From contig CALSUG010000005.1 of assembly GCA_943789475.1 (NCBI GenBank), forward strand, positions 1-64,000: a stretch of 64,000 bases of DNA, in the 5' to 3' direction. Position 1 is the first letter of the stretch. Each line of letters begins with the position of its first letter. This DNA is from an uncultured Alphaproteobacteria bacterium (GTDB taxonomy: Bacteria; Pseudomonadota; Alphaproteobacteria; Micavibrionales; UBA1664). The position numbers and the translations under genes were made by a program. Of this stretch, positions 42,027-56,820 are shown piece by piece. The notes beneath the pieces were generated by a model. It saw only the letters and a program-made list of their open reading frames with translations, did not search any database and was not told where the DNA came from.

Positions 42027-43757
42027 ATGAAGAAAAATATTTGTAATTTTTTGAATTTATTTAACCGCAAGGATTATATTTCCATGGCGGGTTTGTTGTT
42101 ATTAATGATTGTTGGTGCGACGTTAGAAATGGCGGGATTAACCGTTCTTGTTCCAATCATTGATGTTATATCAAACCCAGAAAAATTAAATAATAACGAA
42201 ACATATGAAATGATTTATACGATCATTGGTGCAGATTCTTTAAAAAGTTTTATATTGCGTTTATCCGCGGTCGTTGTGACGTACATCGTGTGTAAAAATT
42301 TATTTTTGGCATATGTTAGTTTGCGTCAGGCAAAATTTATCAAAAACAAGGAAATCCAAACGACCAATCGTTTGTTGGCATCCTATTTATTCAAACCCTA
42401 TTTGGAAATGTCACATCGCAACAGTGCAGATCTTATTCGTAATATTAACCAAGAGGTTAATTACGCATTCACAATTGTTGTGCAGCCATTGTTTATCTTG
42501 ATATCTGAAATTTTTGTCGTGATGGCCTTACTCACATTGATGGTTGTCGTTTCACCAGGGGCAACATTGCTGGCGTTTTGTATTTTGGCATGTGGAGTTT
42601 TATTCTTTTTATTATGTGTCAAAAAAATTATTAATAAATTTGGTTCTCAACGTCAAAATGCGCGGGGGCGTATGATTGAGTGGGCGACGCAGGCTCTCTA
42701 TTCGCTGAAAGAATTGTTAGTCGCGCGAAAGGAAAAATATTTCCTTGATCGTTTTGATGAACAAGCGCAAAAAACGAAACAAGCCGAAACATTTGATATG
42801 GCGATGGGACGCATCCCTGTTTTATTTATCGAAGTTTTTGCAATCGCGACAATGTTGTTGGTGATGATTTATATTTTCTTAAATGAAGAAAATTTTATTG
42901 CAACATTATCACTATTTGCCTTGGTTCTATTACGTTTGATGCCAACGATGAATAGGGTGACCGTGTGTGCATCACGCATTCGTTTTTATTGGCCATCATT
43001 GAATGCCGTTTCACAAGATTTGGAAAAGTGCACGATGGGGGAGGTTTCAAAAAAAACGCCACGAAAATTGAATTTCAAAGAGAGTTTTAACATTGAAGAT
43101 GTTTCTTTTACCTATCCTGCAACGGATAATGCCGTTTTAAAAAATGTATCGTTAAAGATTCCGAAAGGGAAAATTATATCAATCGTTGGGGCATCAGGAT
43201 CAGGGAAAACGACATTTATGGACATCATGTTAGGGTTGTTGTCCCCACAATCGGGTAAGATGATTTTGGATGGTAAGGACATTACGAAGAAAATTGATGG
43301 GTTTCGCAATATGGTCAGTTACCTTCCGCAATCAGTGTATTTGTTGAACGCAACGATCCGTGAAAATATTGCCTTTGGTGTTGAGCCATCAAAAATAAAA
43401 AATAAAAAAATAAATGATATTTTGAAAAAGGTTGGTTTGGACGGTATGGTTCAGTCATTGCCTGATGGGTTGAATACGCCCATTGGCGACATCTCGAAAA
43501 AGATATCTGGGGGACAACAGCAACGTATCGGTATCGCACGTGCGCTTTATCATGATAAGGATATTTTGTTTTTGGACGAAGCAACAGCGGGGTTAGACCC
43601 AAAGGTTGAAAAAAAAATTTGTGATACATTAAAATCATTAACACCCGAGGTCACGATTATTTCGATTTCGCATCAGGATGCATTGATCAATATTGCAGAT
43701 GAAATTTATACGATGAACAAGGGCGTTCTGAAATCAAAAGGAAAGAAAAAGAAATGA
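42027..43757 (+). CDS. PglK-like ABC transporter (lipid-linked glycan flippase candidate)
   Basis: A 576-residue half-transporter with an N-terminal six-helix membrane domain (about 18-320) and a C-terminal ATPase domain. Walker A G-A-S-G-S-G-K-T-T lies at about 386-394, the Q-loop follows, then signature I-S-G-G-Q-Q-Q at about 493 and Walker B I-L-F-L-D-E-A-T, followed by A-G-L-D (usual S-A-L-D) and H-loop S-I-S-H-Q. The N-terminus and size resemble PglK and related flippases that turn undecaprenyl-linked glycans across the membrane, and its place at the head of the glycan locus supports this. Lipid export (MsbA type) remains possible. It overlaps the next gene by four bases. Confidence 0.75.
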   Translation: MKKNICNFLNLFNRKDYISMAGLLLLMIVGATLEMAGLTVLVPIIDVISNPEKLNNNETYEMIYTIIGADSLKSFILRLSAVVVTYIVCKNLFLAYVSLRQAKFIKNKEIQTTNRLLASYLFKPYLEMSHRNSADLIRNINQEVNYAFTIVVQPLFILISEIFVVMALLTLMVVVSPGATLLAFCILACGVLFFLLCVKKIINKFGSQRQNARGRMIEWATQALYSLKELLVARKEKYFLDRFDEQAQKTKQAETFDMAMGRIPVLFIEVFAIATMLLVMIYIFLNEENFIATLSLFALVLLRLMPTMNRVTVCASRIRFYWPSLNAVSQDLEKCTMGEVSKKTPRKLNFKESFNIEDVSFTYPATDNAVLKNVSLKIPKGKIISIVGASGSGKTTFMDIMLGLLSPQSGKMILDGKDITKKIDGFRNMVSYLPQSVYLLNATIRENIAFGVEPSKIKNKKINDILKKVGLDGMVQSLPDGLNTPIGDISKKISGGQQQRIGIARALYHDKDILFLDEATAGLDPKVEKKICDTLKSLTPEVTIISISHQDALINIADEIYTMNKGVLKSKGKKKK

Positions 43758-44767
43758 GTGCGCAAAATCAATCATTAAACGAAAATGATATTCGTCCTGA
43801 TGATTTAATGGATGAACAGAAAAAGAGAATGCTTGCCGATATTGATTATCTTCTCGGTTTTCGCGATCAATTTGTTGATGTTGGGTGCCCTGCCTGTAAA
43901 TCAACAAGTTATCGATTTGTCTTTGAAAAATTTTCCATGAATTACAATACGTGCGAAGACTGTGACACGCTTTATATCTCACCGCGTCCGACACCTGAAA
44001 TTTTGGGGAAATTTTATGCTAACTCGGTAAATTACGAATATTGGGCAACACATATTTTTCCAGCGAGTGAAGAGGCGCGCACAGAAAAAATTTTCCGTCC
44101 ACGAGCGGAGCGTGTTCGTGATCTATGTGCGAAATATGACATGGCACCTGAAACTATGGTGGAAATTGGTGCAGGGTTTGGAACATTCGGTAGTGAGGTT
44201 GAGAAGTTGCATCTTGTTGATCGTTTTGTTGCTGTTGAGCCATCCAATTCATTGGCAAAAAAATGTAGTGACCGTGGTTTAGAAACCATGAATATGCCCA
44301 TTGAAGAAACAAATTTTGAAGATAACAGTGTTGATGTTGTTTGTAGTTTCGAGGTAATCGAACATATTTTTGACCCATCATCTATTTTCGAAACATGTCA
44401 TCGTATTTTACGTCCGGGTGGATTGGTTATTGTGACAAATCCAAATGGTCATGGATTTGACGTGGTTGCGGCACCTCAACATTCGACAACTGTGGATGTT
44501 GAGCATTTGAATTATTATAATCCAAAATCAATGCGCGTCATGTTTGAACGTACAGGATTTGAAGTGGTGGAGGTCATGACGCCGGGCGTTTTGGATGCCG
44601 AATTGCTGCATAAAATGTTTGTCTCGGGTGAGATGAAAAAAGAAGATAATCCATTTCTTTATCAAATTTTGGTTGAAAAGTGGGAGGAAACTCGTGATGA
44701 TTTCCAAGAATTTTTAGTGAAACATAATTTATCATCCCATATGTGGACGATAGCAAGAAAGGTTTAG
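43754..44767 (+). CDS. SAM-dependent methyltransferase with N-terminal zinc ribbon
   Basis: A 337-residue enzyme. Residues about 45-75 form a zinc-ribbon-like pair (C-P-A-C and C-E-D-C), then a class I methyltransferase core follows with motif I V-E-I-G-A-G-F-G-T-F-G (about 135-145), the post-core S-F-E-V-I-E-H-I-F-D-P and R-I-L-R-P-G-G-L-V-I-V-T. Such proteins often methylate sugars or nucleotide sugars in surface-glycan loci; the substrate here is unknown. It starts inside the flippase stop (ATGA), showing coupling, and the next methyltransferase begins five bases downstream. Confidence 0.78.
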   Translation: MSAQNQSLNENDIRPDDLMDEQKKRMLADIDYLLGFRDQFVDVGCPACKSTSYRFVFEKFSMNYNTCEDCDTLYISPRPTPEILGKFYANSVNYEYWATHIFPASEEARTEKIFRPRAERVRDLCAKYDMAPETMVEIGAGFGTFGSEVEKLHLVDRFVAVEPSNSLAKKCSDRGLETMNMPIEETNFEDNSVDVVCSFEVIEHIFDPSSIFETCHRILRPGGLVIVTNPNGHGFDVVAAPQHSTTVDVEHLNYYNPKSMRVMFERTGFEVVEVMTPGVLDAELLHKMFVSGEMKKEDNPFLYQILVEKWEETRDDFQEFLVKHNLSSHMWTIARKV

Positions 44768-47574: not shown

Positions 47575-49137
47575 CTACAGCTTACAATGTTCTAAAATTA
47601 GATCGACAAAATCATCGATAGATTTTTTTAATTCTTCTGGTGGTAAATCATTTTTGAACCAATAGTAAGTCGTGGAGAGTTCAAACGCTTTTGATAAAAT
47701 ACACGCGGTATATAATTTTATTTTTTTGATGGATACAGGTTTTGTTTTAAGAGCTGTTTGAATGGCATCGCCAATTTTTGTTGGTTCAGGGCAATGTACA
47801 AAACCTTCATCCATATTGAGGTAATGTTGATTTCCTAAAATCACAGGCACTTTGCCCAACATCATATTTTCCCATCCAGCGGTTCCTGTGAGTGTGATGG
47901 TCAGTTGGGCCTGCTTCATACATTTAAAATTATCTTCAAATGGTGAGACAGCGCACACATCGGGCATATTGGCGATTCTTTTTGCAAATGATGATGGACG
48001 TCGTCCAATCATGGGTACGTGATCTTTTACAACGAGTTTCCATCCTGCGGGAATTTGCTTTGATGCAAATTCGATGAGGGATATTTGATCGGTTAATTTG
48101 TCACACATAACCATGCTGGTCATTTCTGGATCAACCTGAAGGGGGAAATAGATGAATTTTGTATCGCCAACAATATCATCAAGAGTGCATTGTTTTTTAC
48201 GCATTTCTTTTTGCATGCCCCAAAATTTCATCAGTGATAATTTGAAAATTTCGGAACCATAACGTTGTCGCCAAATACCGCGTGATCCAATTAAACCTAA
48301 TTTTAACGCGCCCCAACGTGCACAATCGCGTGCGGCAAGTTTTATAAATCCAAATAGACTGTTTTCTTTTTTAAGAAGATCAATCCAGAATGTCGTGTCA
48401 CCAGGGCGTTCAGGTTTGTTACGAAAATCATCAATATGTTTTGATGCTTTATCATGCAAGGATTTCTCAATAAGAGACGGTTTTTTAAGTGCCTTTTTAT
48501 AAATTTCACCAACCTGAGGAAGGCACATTTTTTCATCGGGATCGACAACATAATAATCCCCCATTCGTGCGTAACTTAATTGTACCGCAGGGATGTTGTG
48601 ATAATGAGCTGCAAAATGAAGCGCAATGGCATCGGCACCCGCAACACCATAAGTGTAAATAACATCTGGTTTTTGATCTTTGATTAAATCAAAACAATAG
48701 TCGAGCAATCCTATAACATAGCTCCAACGGCTATCAGGATTTTTTTCGAACTGATCTATAAGCGGTGTGCGTTCAACATATCCACCCGCAACATATCCGT
48801 ATCCAATCTCACGATCCGCGGTGATAATTTTGCGAAGCGTATCGTCACCTAGTTTTTTACGATAAAATTCAAGACGTTTATAATCAACAGGGGTGTTAAC
48901 CCATTGTGTAATCATTTCGTTGAGGAAATCACAACGATTAAAGGCATATGGGGTGTCGTCTAATTTTTTGATATTATCGACCAGATAGTGACGTCCAGAA
49001 ATAAAAGCAGACAATTTACATTTGGGATGACGATCACGTAATTCCTGTGCAACTTTCATATGATAATCAAACAATGCACCAGCTAGTAAGAAGACGACGC
49101 TGGGTGATTTTGTTTGTTGCTGTTTTTTAATCGTCAT
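47575..49137 (-). CDS. Capsule-synthesis-like glycosyltransferase (putative)
   Basis: A 520-residue protein with two Rossmann-like halves. The C-terminal half has Y-F-P-L-Q-V-D-P-E, V-V-K-D-H-V-P-M-I-G-R-R, and a sugar-nucleotide-site-like I-T-L-T-G-T-A-G-W-E-N-M-M-L-G-K-P-type segment, as in capsule polysaccharide biosynthesis and other GT-B proteins. The N-terminal half holds a strand and G-V-A-G-A-D-A. No signal or membrane helix is evident. Its neighbours (HisF-amidotransferase, oxidoreductases) place it in the glycan locus. The donor and acceptor are unknown. Confidence 0.58.
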   Translation of the reverse strand: MTIKKQQQTKSPSVVFLLAGALFDYHMKVAQELRDRHPKCKLSAFISGRHYLVDNIKKLDDTPYAFNRCDFLNEMITQWVNTPVDYKRLEFYRKKLGDDTLRKIITADREIGYGYVAGGYVERTPLIDQFEKNPDSRWSYVIGLLDYCFDLIKDQKPDVIYTYGVAGADAIALHFAAHYHNIPAVQLSYARMGDYYVVDPDEKMCLPQVGEIYKKALKKPSLIEKSLHDKASKHIDDFRNKPERPGDTTFWIDLLKKENSLFGFIKLAARDCARWGALKLGLIGSRGIWRQRYGSEIFKLSLMKFWGMQKEMRKKQCTLDDIVGDTKFIYFPLQVDPEMTSMVMCDKLTDQISLIEFASKQIPAGWKLVVKDHVPMIGRRPSSFAKRIANMPDVCAVSPFEDNFKCMKQAQLTITLTGTAGWENMMLGKVPVILGNQHYLNMDEGFVHCPEPTKIGDAIQTALKTKPVSIKKIKLYTACILSKAFELSTTYYWFKNDLPPEELKKSIDDFVDLILEHCKL

Positions 49138-51193
49138 TTATTGTGTCCCAAATATTGTGTTTTTTCCATGTGCCATTGTCTTTCCACCATACACGTTTAT
49201 CACGGTATGTGTCGGCAATGGCATCAAATTGTTCGGCACTCATGCCTGTATATTCGCTCCACCGATCCATATCTTTTGATCGGATGTGATCTTTTTCTTT
49301 GACAAGTTCGATGGCTTGCTCACGTGACATATCGCCACTACGGAGATCTTTTGCAGTATGATCTGTACAACGGCCATAGCCAAATTTTATCCATTTTAGA
49401 TAATCATGCCCACCATTTTCATGGATGTCATCAAGGTTTGATCCCGTGCGATATGTGCGTTCAAATGGTTCTTTCGATGCCTCGAAACCATATTTTTCAA
49501 CCATTAATGGTAAATGTTTATTCGCATCCCATTGAGTATAATTGGACAAGAAGACACCGCGCAAGTCGATATCAAAAATTTCCTGATCAGTGGGATATTG
49601 ATATGGATACATATTTTGTTCGGTAATACCCTCAAGCCCGACCATATAATTCCAATCATATCCGCGTGCGAAATGTTCAAGACGATTACGGTATGTCCAT
49701 TCAATAAAATCATTCATTGAAAATTGACCGCATAAATCTTGATATCCATGTTCACCCCATAACACCGTTGGGATTTTATGTAGAGCGGCTATCTTCATCG
49801 GTAACGTTGAAATTCCGACATGTCCGTGCCAATTCATGTCCCCCATGATTTGAACACCAAGGCGGTTCAATTTTTTTAATAAGGGAACACCAGGATGATA
49901 AATAATGTGATTAACATCAAACATATCGGCCATACGGCGTAGGTTGCGTTCGCCCGCTTCGGAATAGTTGTTGCCGTAATAGGTGACGAGTAGAGGCTCA
50001 AACCCCAAAACATTTTTTACAAAATGCGTCTGGAAGTAGCTGTCCTTTCCACCACTTACCCCGATTACACAGTCAGGTCGTGATTTGTTGGGGCATGCAC
50101 CGCGTGCAATAATATCGCGTAAGGCTTCTTTACGTCGCGCCCATTCATTATCGGTGATTTCAAATTTAATATTTGAATTTTTACATCCTGTACATAAACC
50201 GGTTTCATCAAACGCAAGTGGTGTTGCTGATAATTTTGGATAAGTACAGTTAATGCACCATTCCATTTTTTTCGGCTCATTCCAGTTGGGCGTGTTTTTA
50301 AGTTCCGTTGCACGTGCCATACGGTCATCAATACGTTTTTTTGTTTCTTCTAAATCGTAAATCGGTTCGCGAGGGAACCACTTATTATCCAATTTAACAG
50401 GGCGAAGCGATAACCCGTTGTCGATACAGTGTTGTTTTGACTTAGGGTAAGATAGTTCAAAATAATTAAAAATATTTGCGGCGGCAATCGCACTTGCATC
50501 TGTGTTTTTAAATGTTTCTGCAAAATGATCATATGATCCTGCGCCACCACATGCAATCACAGGGATGGACACAGCCTTTGTGATTTTATCTATGATGTTA
50601 TTGTCAAAACCGTTGCCTAAACCATCACGGTCAATATTTTGAAGGAAAATCTCGCCAGCACCCATTTTTTCAACTTGTTGTGCATATTGAATAAGATCTA
50701 AATCGGTTTTTGTTTTTCCACTGTGTGAATAGATGCCGTATGATCCATCGTCTTCTTTGCGTATATCGATATTAATGACAACGCATTGTGCGCCAAATTC
50801 TTGCGAACACTGCGTGATGAATTCTGGCGTTTCAATAGCTTGCGTATTGATGATAATTTTATCTGCACCATTTTCCAATCGTGCGCGTGCATCATCTAAT
50901 GTTTTGACGCGTCCACCAAATGATAGGGGCATAGAGCATACGGATGATATTTGTTTAAGTAGGCCCAGCGTTGTATTGTCGTCATAACTAATATACAGAT
51001 CATCGCGGCGCATATCGTGGTGGTCATGGTCACTGATGTCGATTAAGACAAGTTCATCAACGTTCCAATTGGAAAGTCTGCGAATTGTATCAATCGGGTT
51101 TCCAATGACTTGGTGTATATGAAACATTTCGGATCGAACGATCATTCCATGTTTAATTAACACAACGGGAATAAGGCGACGATATTGGCTCAT
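49127..51193 (-). CDS. HisF-like domain fused to N-acetyl sugar amidotransferase (WbpG/PseA type)
   Basis: A 688-residue fusion. Residues 1 to about 265 are a HisF-type barrel (R-R-L-I-P-V-V-L-I-K-H-G, G-G-R-V-K-T, V-V-I-N-I-D-I, and A-C-G-G-A-G). After a linker there is a zinc-ribbon-like Cys set (C-I-N-C and C-T-G-C, about 311-333) and then an amidotransferase domain with the PP-loop G-V-S-G-G-K-D-S near 375. WbpG, HisH2 and HisF2 are separate proteins in Pseudomonas and convert an N-acetyl group to acetamidino; PseA does this for pseudaminic acid in Campylobacter. The Asp of the HisF C-L-D motif reads Leu here, so histidine synthesis is unlikely. It overlaps hisH by four bases and the glycosyltransferase gene by 11. 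Confidence 0.88.
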   Translation of the reverse strand: MSQYRRLIPVVLIKHGMIVRSEMFHIHQVIGNPIDTIRRLSNWNVDELVLIDISDHDHHDMRRDDLYISYDDNTTLGLLKQISSVCSMPLSFGGRVKTLDDARARLENGADKIIINTQAIETPEFITQCSQEFGAQCVVINIDIRKEDDGSYGIYSHSGKTKTDLDLIQYAQQVEKMGAGEIFLQNIDRDGLGNGFDNNIIDKITKAVSIPVIACGGAGSYDHFAETFKNTDASAIAAANIFNYFELSYPKSKQHCIDNGLSLRPVKLDNKWFPREPIYDLEETKKRIDDRMARATELKNTPNWNEPKKMEWCINCTYPKLSATPLAFDETGLCTGCKNSNIKFEITDNEWARRKEALRDIIARGACPNKSRPDCVIGVSGGKDSYFQTHFVKNVLGFEPLLVTYYGNNYSEAGERNLRRMADMFDVNHIIYHPGVPLLKKLNRLGVQIMGDMNWHGHVGISTLPMKIAALHKIPTVLWGEHGYQDLCGQFSMNDFIEWTYRNRLEHFARGYDWNYMVGLEGITEQNMYPYQYPTDQEIFDIDLRGVFLSNYTQWDANKHLPLMVEKYGFEASKEPFERTYRTGSNLDDIHENGGHDYLKWIKFGYGRCTDHTAKDLRSGDMSREQAIELVKEKDHIRSKDMDRWSEYTGMSAEQFDAIADTYRDKRVWWKDNGTWKKHNIWDTINDD

Positions 51194-51825
51194 GCTGATT
51201 TTGTCTCTTTTACAAAGCGGTCAAGTAGATCTAACCCCGCATCTTGTGATTTTTCAGGATGAAATTGACATCCAAAAACATTTTCACGTTCTATGGATAC
51301 CGTGATGTCTTGCCCGTCATAATTGATCGTTGCAGCAATATCGGATGAGTCGTTACAAACCATGTGGTAACTATGCACATGGTAAAAGCTATCTTGTTGA
51401 TAATTTTGAGGAAATAAACTGCAGTTTTTCTTTTTATTTACGTCATACCATCCAGTGTTGGGGACACGGTAATCATTGGTCGTTGGGGATAGTTTGACTA
51501 CCTCAGCATCTAAGATACCTAACCCTTCGATTTTTGTATCGCTTCCCTCTAGGCCAGTTTTTGCGAGGAGTTGCATGCCTAAACAAATGCCAATTGTAGG
51601 CACTTTGTCATTAATAACGCGTTGTTTTACCAAATCAACGAGGCCAGCGTCACTTAACCCCTTCATTCCACGTGTGAATGCAGATACACCAGGAACAACA
51701 AGAGCAGAGGCATTCTTAATAACGTCGTAATCATCTGTAAGGAGAATATCAGTACCGATTTTTTTAAACCCATTGAGGATTGAACCGAAATTTCCAGCCT
51801 TAGTGTCGATAATTGTTAATTGCAT
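51190..51825 (-). CDS. hisH: HisH-like glutamine amidotransferase subunit for sugar amidation
   Basis: Class I glutaminase of 211 residues that releases ammonia from glutamine for its partner. Catalytic triad in place: Cys81 (G-I-C-L-G-M), His189 and Glu191 (F-H-P-E-K). Family start I-I-D-T-K-A-G-N-F and the oxyanion-forming V-P-G-V are visible. It is translationally coupled (ATGA) to the HisF-amidotransferase fusion and lies in a glycan locus with no other histidine gene, so it probably feeds the sugar amidotransferase. Its promoter lies in the 85-bp region shared with divergent pseB. Confidence 0.88.
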   Translation of the reverse strand: MQLTIIDTKAGNFGSILNGFKKIGTDILLTDDYDVIKNASALVVPGVSAFTRGMKGLSDAGLVDLVKQRVINDKVPTIGICLGMQLLAKTGLEGSDTKIEGLGILDAEVVKLSPTTNDYRVPNTGWYDVNKKKNCSLFPQNYQQDSFYHVHSYHMVCNDSSDIAATINYDGQDITVSIERENVFGCQFHPEKSQDAGLDLLDRFVKETKSA

Positions 51826-54051
<2,226 letters not shown>

Positions 54052-54059
<8 letters not shown>

Positions 54060-54759
54060 GGTAATTGCATTTATTCACGCACGTGGTGGATCAAAACGTA
54101 TTCCACGTAAAAATATAAAAGATTTTTTTGGGAAACCTGCGATTGCTTACCCAATTCAAGCTGCACTTGATAGTGGTGTGTTTGATCATGTTGTCATCTC
54201 AACGGATGATCAAGAGATTGCGTATATTGCTGTAAAATACGGTGCTCAATGTCATTATATGCGCCCTGATGAATTGGCAAATGACACGGCAACAACAGAT
54301 GAAGTTTTTCAATATGATGTTCGTACAATGCGTGAAAAGGGATTTGAATTTGATTATGCCTGTTGCATTTATGGAACAAGTATTTTTCTTGAACCAGAAT
54401 ATTTGAAAGATGCCGCTCAAACAATTTCAACGCGTGATGATATTGGGTCGGTGATTTCAGTCACGGAATATGATTTTTCTATTTTTCGTGCGTTGGTTGA
54501 AAATGATAAGGGGTGTTTGCAAATGCGTGAGCCGGAACATCGATTGACAAGGTCACAGGATTTACCCATCGCATATCATGACGCGGCATTATTTTATTTT
54601 GTGCCTGTCGAAAATTATATGAAAGAGGGAAAAGTTTATTCCGAAAAAGGTATACGCCCCGCAAAAATTCCACATTACAAGGTGGTGGATATTGATACCC
54701 CTGATGATTGGGCGCGTGCAGAAATGATGTATGAATCCTTGCGGAAATTAAAATCATGA
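54052..54759 (+). CDS. pseF: CMP-pseudaminic acid cytidylyltransferase PseF
   Basis: Activates pseudaminic acid as CMP-Pse, the donor for glycosyltransferases. The 235-residue CMP-sugar synthetase begins I-A-F-I-H-A-R-G-G-S-K-R-I-P-R-K-N-I-K (CTP site) and has the D-I-D-T-P-D-D-W-A-R-A-E end typical of PseF. No extra hydrolase domain is fused. It overlaps pseC (8 bp) and the following acetyltransferase gene (4 bp). CMP-legionaminate synthetase relatives are less likely given the linked pseB and pseC. Confidence 0.9.
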
Positions 54760-55214
54760 TTATTCGACCTGCAACATATCAAGATTCAGATGATTTGTTT
54801 TCATGGCGTAATGATCCACAAACACGGGTGATGTCCATCACATCGGATGAAGTGAGCAGGTCTGATCATGATGGATGGTATTCCGCGACATTGTCCAATC
54901 CAAAACGTATTTTGTTTATCGGAGAATTAGATGATAACAAAATAGGTATGTGTCGTTTTGATATCGGCGAAGATAAAGGCGCAACAGTATCGATCAACCT
55001 TAATCCACTCATGCGTGGCAAGGGATTGTCGGTTGAATTTTTAAAACGATCGATAGATACCTTTTGGGAAGTTTCAAAAATTGATCTTAATGCAATGATA
55101 AAACATGATAATACTGCGAGTATAAAATGTTTTGAAAAGGCAGGATTTTGTCAAAAATCATCCGATGAAAATTTTCATGAATACACATTAAAATACAAGG
55201 GAATGCAGTTATGA
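54756..55214 (+). CDS. GNAT acetyltransferase of the Pse operon (PseH-like)
   Basis: A 152-residue GNAT protein starting I-I-R-P-A-T-Y-Q-D-S-D-D-L-F-S-W-R-N-D-P, with the acetyl-CoA site around I-N-L-N-P-L-M-R-G-K-G-L-S. This domain resembles the acetyltransferase often fused to, or next to, PseG and fits N4 acetylation (PseH role) in pseudaminate synthesis. Unusually, PseG itself is not attached or adjacent. It overlaps its neighbours by four bases on both sides. Confidence 0.75.
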   Translation: MIIRPATYQDSDDLFSWRNDPQTRVMSITSDEVSRSDHDGWYSATLSNPKRILFIGELDDNKIGMCRFDIGEDKGATVSINLNPLMRGKGLSVEFLKRSIDTFWEVSKIDLNAMIKHDNTASIKCFEKAGFCQKSSDENFHEYTLKYKGMQL

Positions 55215-55633
55215 TTACATTTGAACCTGTTCAAAAAACAGAAGATCACGCTCTTGTTTTATATGATTTTCTTTTATCGCGTGATGGATCCCAAAATATA
55301 AGTCATCAATCGGAACCTAATTTGGACGAACATAAAGAATTTGTTTTTAATCATCCTTATCGCGCATGGTATTTTGTGAAAAAAAATGATGAATATATAG
55401 GGAGTGTGAATGTTTTGGAAAGCAATACAATCGGGCTGTATATTCCATCTTCCGAAAATGATGCGATTAAAAAAGCGATTGAATTTGTAAAAGAAAATTA
55501 TGATCCTTTACCACCAATAAAATCGATTAGACAATCAAGATTTATAATAAACGTAGCCATTAATAATAAAGGTTTAGGTGACGTTATATCTGATCTTGGC
55601 GGTCAAGTGATCCAAACGACTTATTTGATTTAG
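55211..55633 (+). CDS. GNAT-like protein in Pse operon
   Basis: A 140-residue protein with a GNAT-like pattern: R-A-W-Y-F-V-K-K-N-D-E-Y-I-G-S-V-N-V-L-E, then N-T-I-G-L-Y-I-P and a helix, but no clear Q/R-x-x-G-x-G/A acetyl-CoA loop. It may be a divergent acetyltransferase using another acyl group, or a non-catalytic relative. Coupled by a four-base overlap with the preceding GNAT gene, and 11 bases before pseI, so it belongs to the same operon. Two acetyltransferase-like proteins in tandem could give differently acylated nonulosonates. Confidence 0.55.
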   Translation: MITFEPVQKTEDHALVLYDFLLSRDGSQNISHQSEPNLDEHKEFVFNHPYRAWYFVKKNDEYIGSVNVLESNTIGLYIPSSENDAIKKAIEFVKENYDPLPPIKSIRQSRFIINVAINNKGLGDVISDLGGQVIQTTYLI

Positions 55634-55644
55634 AGTAAAAAAAT

Positions 55645-56820
55645 ATGAGTAAAATTTTAGATGTTTTTAAAAATCCAGCTGCACCATGTTATGTGATTGC
55701 TGAACTGTCATGTAACCATAATGGGGATTATGACGAAGCTGTTAAAATTATGCATGCGGCAAAGGATGCGGGCGCGGATGCTATAAAGTTGCAAACCTAT
55801 ACAGCCGATACGATTTGCCGGAATTTCAAAACAAAGCCGGAAGGAACAATTTGGGAAGATCTTGATCTTTATGCGCTTTATCAAAAGGCATACACGCCAT
55901 GGGACTGGCAGTTGAAATTGGGAGAAGAGGCAAAACGCACAGGGATTGATATTTTATCATCTCCATTTGATGAAACAGCGGTTGATTTTTTGGTTGATGA
56001 ACTCAATGTTCCTGCGTTGAAAGTTGCATCGTTTGAAGCTGTAGACACAAAACTCCTCCAAAAAATGGCAAAGACAGGCTTACCGATTATCATGTCAAAC
56101 GGTATGACGACTTTCGCAGAAATGAAAGAATCAATTCAAATTTTGCGTGATGCAGGTTGTTCGGATTTATTGATGTTGCAATGTAATAGCGGATATCCCG
56201 CGGCGTTTGATGAGGCGAATTTAAATACAATGAAGGTGATGGCCGAAATGTTTGATGTGCCTGTTGGTGTATCCGATCACACTATGTTTGCGGATACTGA
56301 AAATTTTTCAACACCATTGGCGCATATCACGCCTGTTGAGGCGGTTAAAATGGGGGCGAAAGTTGTTGAAGTTCATTTAATGATGGATCGCGGCGAAAGC
56401 CGTGAATTGATGGAAAAAGGTGAGGGTGGTTTTGATTGGCCATTTTCACGTGAGCCGGATGAGTTGAAAAAAATGATCCATATGATCCGTGCGGTAGAAC
56501 GTGGTGAAGATGTTTCATACAAAACAGAGATTGAAAAGAAATGTGCAAATGACACGCATGGAACGGTTAATTTCACACCAACGGAAAAGGAAATGGCATC
56601 ACGTAATGTTCGCCCATCATTATGGATTGTGAATGATATTAAAAAAGGTGAATCATTCAAATTCGCGGCCGAAGCCGAAAATAAAGAGACGGGGAATTTT
56701 GATTCCATTCGTCCTGCGGGTGGTGTTGAAATTCGCTTTACGGATGTTGTTGAGGGGAAAGTCGCAACGCGTGATATTTTCGCGGGGACAGCGCTATCTT
56801 GGGATATGGTTGAATTCTAA
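55645..56820 (+). CDS. pseI: Pseudaminic acid synthase PseI (NeuB family)
   Basis: Condenses the 6-deoxy-diacetamido hexose with phosphoenolpyruvate to make pseudaminic acid. The 391-residue protein has the NeuB barrel (I-A-E-L-S-C-N-H-N-G, K-L-Q-T-Y-T-A-D-T, S-P-F-D, K-V-A-S-F-E) and a C-terminal SAF domain (about 325-391, with R-P-A-G-G-V-E-I). It is longer than the usual 340-350 because of an insertion around the D-H-T/E-V-H-L region (about 215-265). N-acetylneuraminate or legionaminate synthases are alternatives; the operon supports PseI. It directly abuts the glycosyltransferase gene. Confidence 0.88.
   Translation: MSKILDVFKNPAAPCYVIAELSCNHNGDYDEAVKIMHAAKDAGADAIKLQTYTADTICRNFKTKPEGTIWEDLDLYALYQKAYTPWDWQLKLGEEAKRTGIDILSSPFDETAVDFLVDELNVPALKVASFEAVDTKLLQKMAKTGLPIIMSNGMTTFAEMKESIQILRDAGCSDLLMLQCNSGYPAAFDEANLNTMKVMAEMFDVPVGVSDHTMFADTENFSTPLAHITPVEAVKMGAKVVEVHLMMDRGESRELMEKGEGGFDWPFSREPDELKKMIHMIRAVERGEDVSYKTEIEKKCANDTHGTVNFTPTEKEMASRNVRPSLWIVNDIKKGESFKFAAEAENKETGNFDSIRPAGGVEIRFTDVVEGKVATRDIFAGTALSWDMVEF

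Follow-up and report, generated by a model that had tools for sequence, protein, structure and literature searches.

Known acetamidino-sugar systems

The closest described relatives of the locus analyzed here are WbpG/HisH2/HisF2 of Pseudomonas aeruginosa O5 and WbuX/WbuY/WbuZ of Escherichia coli O145, which share with it the same three components, motifs, and surface-sugar context. HisH releases ammonia from glutamine, and the idea that HisF2 supplies ammonia is already known. The same combination of glutaminase and barrel, with the same ammonia gate, is found in IGP synthase (HisF-HisH; structures 1gpw, 2wjz, and 3zr4), and the yeast HisHF fusion (1jvn) provides a precedent for HisF joined to a partner. 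PseA of Campylobacter jejuni, the acetamidino synthase of pseudaminic acid, is reportedly a single-domain protein. Members of the N-acetyl sugar amidotransferase (NASAT) family ligate ammonia to the N-acetyl group of a sugar, probably converting ATP to AMP and PPi, and a structure of the family has been solved (8wex) (PMC10607449). Both the components and the reaction are already known. The reason that acetamidino-sugar enzymes are accompanied by copies of HisH and HisF appears to have been little tested, and we found no open-access paper testing it.

A HisF2-amidotransferase fusion paired with HisH

In the window, by which we mean the whole 64,000-nucleotide stretch analyzed here, two of the three components of the Pseudomonas and E. 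coli systems form one chain, joined by a conserved linker. The fusion and its HisH partner are laid out as follows.

51190-51825, minus strand: HisH-type glutaminase (class I glutamine amidotransferase), 211 aa, identified by TIGR01855 and its catalytic triad
49127-51193, minus strand: HisF2-amidotransferase fusion, 688 aa, an uninterrupted open reading frame (ORF), with the same fusion in 44 other genomes and an AlphaFold model
50402-51181, minus strand: HisF-like (beta-alpha)8 barrel, aa 5-264, identified by PF00977 (1.9e-47), residue counts, and Foldseek
50267-50401, minus strand: inter-domain linker, aa 265-309 (45 residues), from the alignment of 45 fused proteins
49130-50266, minus strand: N-acetyl sugar amidotransferase domain, aa 310-688, identified by TIGR03573, phmmer, and Foldseek
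50183-50257, minus strand: zinc tetracysteine motif C313/C316/C334/C337 (CXXC...GXCXXC), invariant in the 45 fused proteins
50039-50056, minus strand: PP-loop SGGKDS, aa 380-385 (ATP pyrophosphatase signature), read from the sequence and conserved in the fused family

The initial annotation had described HisF and a PP-loop amidotransferase as one 688-residue chain coupled to HisH, and both parts of that description were borne out. The 688-codon ORF reads through the HisF-like barrel, the linker, and the amidotransferase without an internal stop, and Pfam and NCBIfam models match the domains. On the start codon side, an intact HisH frame shares 4 nt with the start of the fusion. Searching other genomes for the same fusion recovered it as a single open frame in 44 further genomes, and a genome of the same genus (G003) carries HisH and the first 189 aa of the fusion, at 77% identity, before its contig ends.

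We checked for an in-frame stop or an assembly error between the domains and found neither. In one genome (G016; L010:1480-1500), HisF2 and the amidotransferase lie in the same frame, parted by one TAG and three codons, which shows how little is needed for a fusion; a miscalled stop could mimic one. Against such an artifact, a homologous linker of about 45 residues, with R275, P277, Y279, and R291 conserved in the alignment of 45 sequences, is present in 44 independent genomes, whereas unfused relatives such as G016 lack it. Sequencing or assembly error therefore has virtually no chance of accounting for the fusion, and the fused frame in 44 independent genome records likewise rules out read-through. 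We found no description of the fused architecture in the searchable open-access literature.

The HisH and amidotransferase components retain their functional motifs

HisH scored 184.7 bits against TIGR01855, above the cutoff of 105.4, and has the Cys-His-Glu triad (C84/H178/E180) and the contact residue K181, in Thermotoga maritima numbering. We located HisH at 43 of the 44 other fused loci; the remaining locus ends at a contig end. Asn stands in place of His120 in the HisH of 37/41 fused loci, versus 0/39 for the HisH of unfused loci. The PGVG motif of the window HisH has Ser in place of its conserved Gly52.

The amidotransferase half belongs to the NASAT/WbuX family, with a TIGR03573 match over aa 310-660 of 258.9 bits (cutoff, 203.2), and matches the Legionella enzyme LpNASAT (8wex) with a phmmer value of 6e-34. 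It carries the PP-loop SGGXDS together with the tetracysteine motif, defined for this family as CXXCXn[GN]XCXXC (PMC10607449). LpNASAT has the same fold, PP-loop, and zinc tetracysteine but, unlike the fusion, is a single-domain protein with no barrel.

The barrel has lost a catalytic residue but keeps the ammonia gate

The NCBIfam model that best fits the barrel is WbuZ (TIGR03572), at 242.7 bits, and AglZ/HisF2 (NF038364) scored 216.1 bits; the fused barrel differs from both families in scoring under their curated cutoffs (299.7 and 310, respectively). Its context matches theirs, with HisH overlapping, the amidotransferase fused, and pse genes adjoining. The barrel also falls below the cutoff for IGP synthase HisF (TIGR00735; 208.9 bits versus 294.55), and of the two catalytic aspartates of IGP synthase, Asp11 and Asp130, it retains only Asp130.

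Asp11 and the other reference positions of the barrel follow the numbering of T. maritima HisF, whose sequence was checked against 2wjz. The initial annotation had noted the loss of the HisF Asp (C-L-D to V-V-L) and argued from it that the barrel is only a channel or scaffold. The loss is real: catalytic Asp11 corresponds to Leu12 in the window, and no fused protein with a residue at this position retains Asp (43 have Leu and 1 has Phe in the alignment of 45). True HisF and HisA, in the sequences that we examined, keep Asp11. The reading of the barrel as a conduit and not an IGP synthase is supported, but the loss is not special to the fusion, as Asp11 is also gone from 42/42 unfused HisF2 partners examined. 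This rules out Asp loss as a hallmark of the fusion; because unfused HisF2 proteins share it, the loss is a trait of the acetamidino family at large, either older than the fusion or unrelated to it.

The window barrel has the gate residues R6/E47/K112/E181 and the HisH-contact residue D111. Across the family, the gate (R5/E46/K99/E167 in T. maritima numbering) is present in at least 44/45 fused proteins and in 42/42 unfused HisF2 proteins, and the contact residue D98 is present in 44/45 and 42/42, respectively. None of the fused proteins has a charged residue in the two interior layers of the barrel, as assigned by strand alternation and general knowledge of HisF. On the exit face, strand 2 is followed by an inserted loop in which R63 and D65 never vary within the fused set; this loop is common among unfused HisF2 proteins and absent from true HisF.

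The host genome (1.97 Mb, 97% complete) contains no hisD that we could find and no hisA or hisF above cutoff. Therefore, neither of its HisF-like proteins serves histidine synthesis by the known route, and such a role for the barrel is ruled out. The second HisF-like protein belongs to an unfused HisH-HisF2-amidotransferase trio on host contig 6 (L002:213-2827), beside a formyltransferase-like gene, so both architectures coexist in one genome. The fusion thus differs from IGP synthase and HisHF in its lost Asp11 and in a host without the histidine pathway, and it differs from yeast HisHF in that the fused partner is the user of ammonia, not its source.

Predicted structure of the fusion

An AlphaFold model of the fusion as a single chain, with the 45 fused sequences as input, had a mean pLDDT of 90.2 and a pTM of 0.89. 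The linker is predicted to be ordered, with blocks at pLDDT 83-95 and a helix at residues 281-300, and the model predicts a fixed arrangement of the two domains. In Foldseek comparisons (target-normalised), the barrel matched HisF 4evz with a TM score of 0.92 and the amidotransferase half matched Legionella 8wex with a TM score of 0.81, and none among the 50 matches listed covered both domains.

Distribution and descent of the fusion

Our scan of species-level genomes returned 80 loci, 44 of which have both domains as one frame of the same layout; the 44 fused genomes were picked as closest relatives, and their count is not a frequency. An even sample of the class has the fusion in the window genome and about three others (~4/385), and an even sample of the phylum (n = 398) has it in two other genomes. 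The fusion is a rare architecture. The titles of the fused records name Pseudomonadota, Thermodesulfobacteriota, Myxococcota, Cyanobacteriota, Verrucomicrobiota, Planctomycetota, Actinomycetota, Armatimonadota, and other phyla, with individual taxon labels uncertain as many of these records are metagenome bins. Cultured carriers include Leptolyngbya sp. PCC 6406 and Acidovorax delafieldii. Unfused HisH-HisF2-amidotransferase trios occur in close relatives and in many phyla. Among the loci examined, we saw no natural HisH-HisF-amidotransferase triple fusion; over-long frames (e.g., L076) look like upstream extensions of the open frame.

All 45 fused proteins fall on one side of a branch both in a tree of the amidotransferase half (SH-aLRT, 100) and in a tree of the barrel half (SH-aLRT, 98), both being quick trees with no bootstrap. 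The simplest reading of these trees is that the two genes fused once and that the fusion then spread widely by horizontal transfer. Far from being confined to the window genome, the fusion would be an old architecture of single origin that occurs in many phyla. A viral or plasmid origin was also rejected: viral contigs and phages gave no fused relative, plasmids gave only weak matches to unfused genes, and the viral structure library gave no relative of the fusion.

Proposed mechanism and alternatives

We consider it probable that HisH and the fusion make up a two-protein acetamidino-sugar synthase in which the inactive barrel is predicted to act as ammonia conduit and scaffold. HisH would hydrolyze glutamine to release ammonia, which would enter the HisF-type barrel through the retained salt-bridge gate, cross its uncharged interior, and exit at the opposite face to the attached PP-loop amidotransferase. 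There, ATP would activate the N-acetyl group of the sugar and NH would replace its oxygen, giving an acetamidino group, which a nearby methyltransferase could then methylate at the amidine. The barrel would have given up the chemistry of IGP synthase for its role as conduit and scaffold. In its strictest form, the model is a relay of three stations (glutaminase, pipe-only barrel, and PP-loop amidotransferase seated on the face that once formed the active site) within one sealed tunnel, and here we judge the odds to be even. The domain layout, the fusion and its single origin, the residues kept or lost, and the gene context come from the sequences themselves; the channeling, docking direction, substrate, and methylation are what we infer.

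The fusion might instead serve only as a scaffold or to fix stoichiometry, with the amidotransferase using cytosolic ammonia or ammonia leaked from a HisH-barrel pair nearby, and no sealed tunnel between the domains. The unfused trios of close relatives and many phyla work without a covalent link, and an NCBI note on WbuZ is said to describe the HisH and HisF partners as not essential for the amidotransferase. For this reason, channeling may be conditional. Yet the gate, the contact residues, and the uncharged interior are strongly conserved, and the linker is conserved as well as predicted to be ordered between domains in a fixed arrangement, all of which makes a purely scaffolding role unlikely. 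Less probable still, with a small chance in our estimate, is a barrel that itself still catalyzes a reaction or binds a ligand, such as a sugar phosphate or nucleotide close to where ammonia leaves. Every fused protein has Asp130, Asp176, Gly177, and Gly203, and 37/45 have Arg (Arg95) for Gly82; given the conserved Asp130 and Asp176, some residual chemistry or ligand binding may persist. Weighing against this role are the family-wide loss of the paired catalytic Asp11, changes at the phosphate-site positions G82, S201, and S225, and a host without a histidine pathway that would need the barrel.

For the conduit model, the recurrence of a natural fusion of single origin is strong circumstantial evidence of direct ammonia hand-over from barrel to amidotransferase. 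Its occurrence in dozens of unrelated bacteria suggests a barrel that pipes ammonia to the sugar enzyme. If this is true, the fusion would be a clear example from nature of an enzyme barrel that has become no more than a conduit. It also reduces the usual trio to a simpler system of two subunits in which channeling to an acetamidino synthase can be tested.

Gene neighborhood and likely product

The genes around the fusion that bear on its product are as follows.

47575-49137, minus strand: 520-aa protein, next gene of the operon by position, with an 11-nt overlap
51911-56820, plus strand: pseudaminic acid genes PseB, PseC, PseF, PseH-like, a second small protein, and PseI-like, divergent from the fusion
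43754-44767, plus strand: methyltransferase, with homologues no more than 6 kb from the fused gene at other loci

The 520-aa protein has no Pfam or NCBIfam match; from its position, it may be a glycosyltransferase for the modified sugar. Beyond it, the operon encodes, still on the minus strand, an alcohol-dehydrogenase-like protein and a Gfo/Idh/MocA oxidoreductase.

PseB (525.6 bits), PseC (506.8 bits), and PseF (271.5 bits) each score above cutoff, while PseI (328 versus 340) and PseH (43.6 versus 93.1) fall below. PseG (TIGR03590) was not found anywhere in the host genome, and a hydrolase from a different family may take its place. The adjoining pse genes point to a product of the type made by PseA, and the most likely substrate in this genome is pseudaminic acid or its CMP/UDP precursor. 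A PseB homologue lies near only 10/44 fused loci, so pseudaminic acid is not a general feature of the fused family, which probably serves several sugars.

Methyltransferase homologues occur within 6 kb at 25/44 fused and 14/36 unfused loci, usually directly adjacent, and at one Myxococcales locus (L083:6808-9012) the methyltransferase and amidotransferase form one 734-aa protein. In Campylobacter and Legionella, a methyltransferase (PtmH, ORF 8) N-methylates the acetimidoyl group (PMC3766260). The methyltransferase is a probable tailoring partner of the amidotransferase, and by analogy the window gene is a plausible candidate for N-methylation of the acetamidino group. The fused locus of Leptolyngbya PCC 6406 (L048) has no pse genes and instead encodes a DUF4910 protein, an AAC(3)-like acetyltransferase, and an asparagine-synthase-like protein (L048:3971-5335 and L048:10825-12660), hinting at a different sugar.
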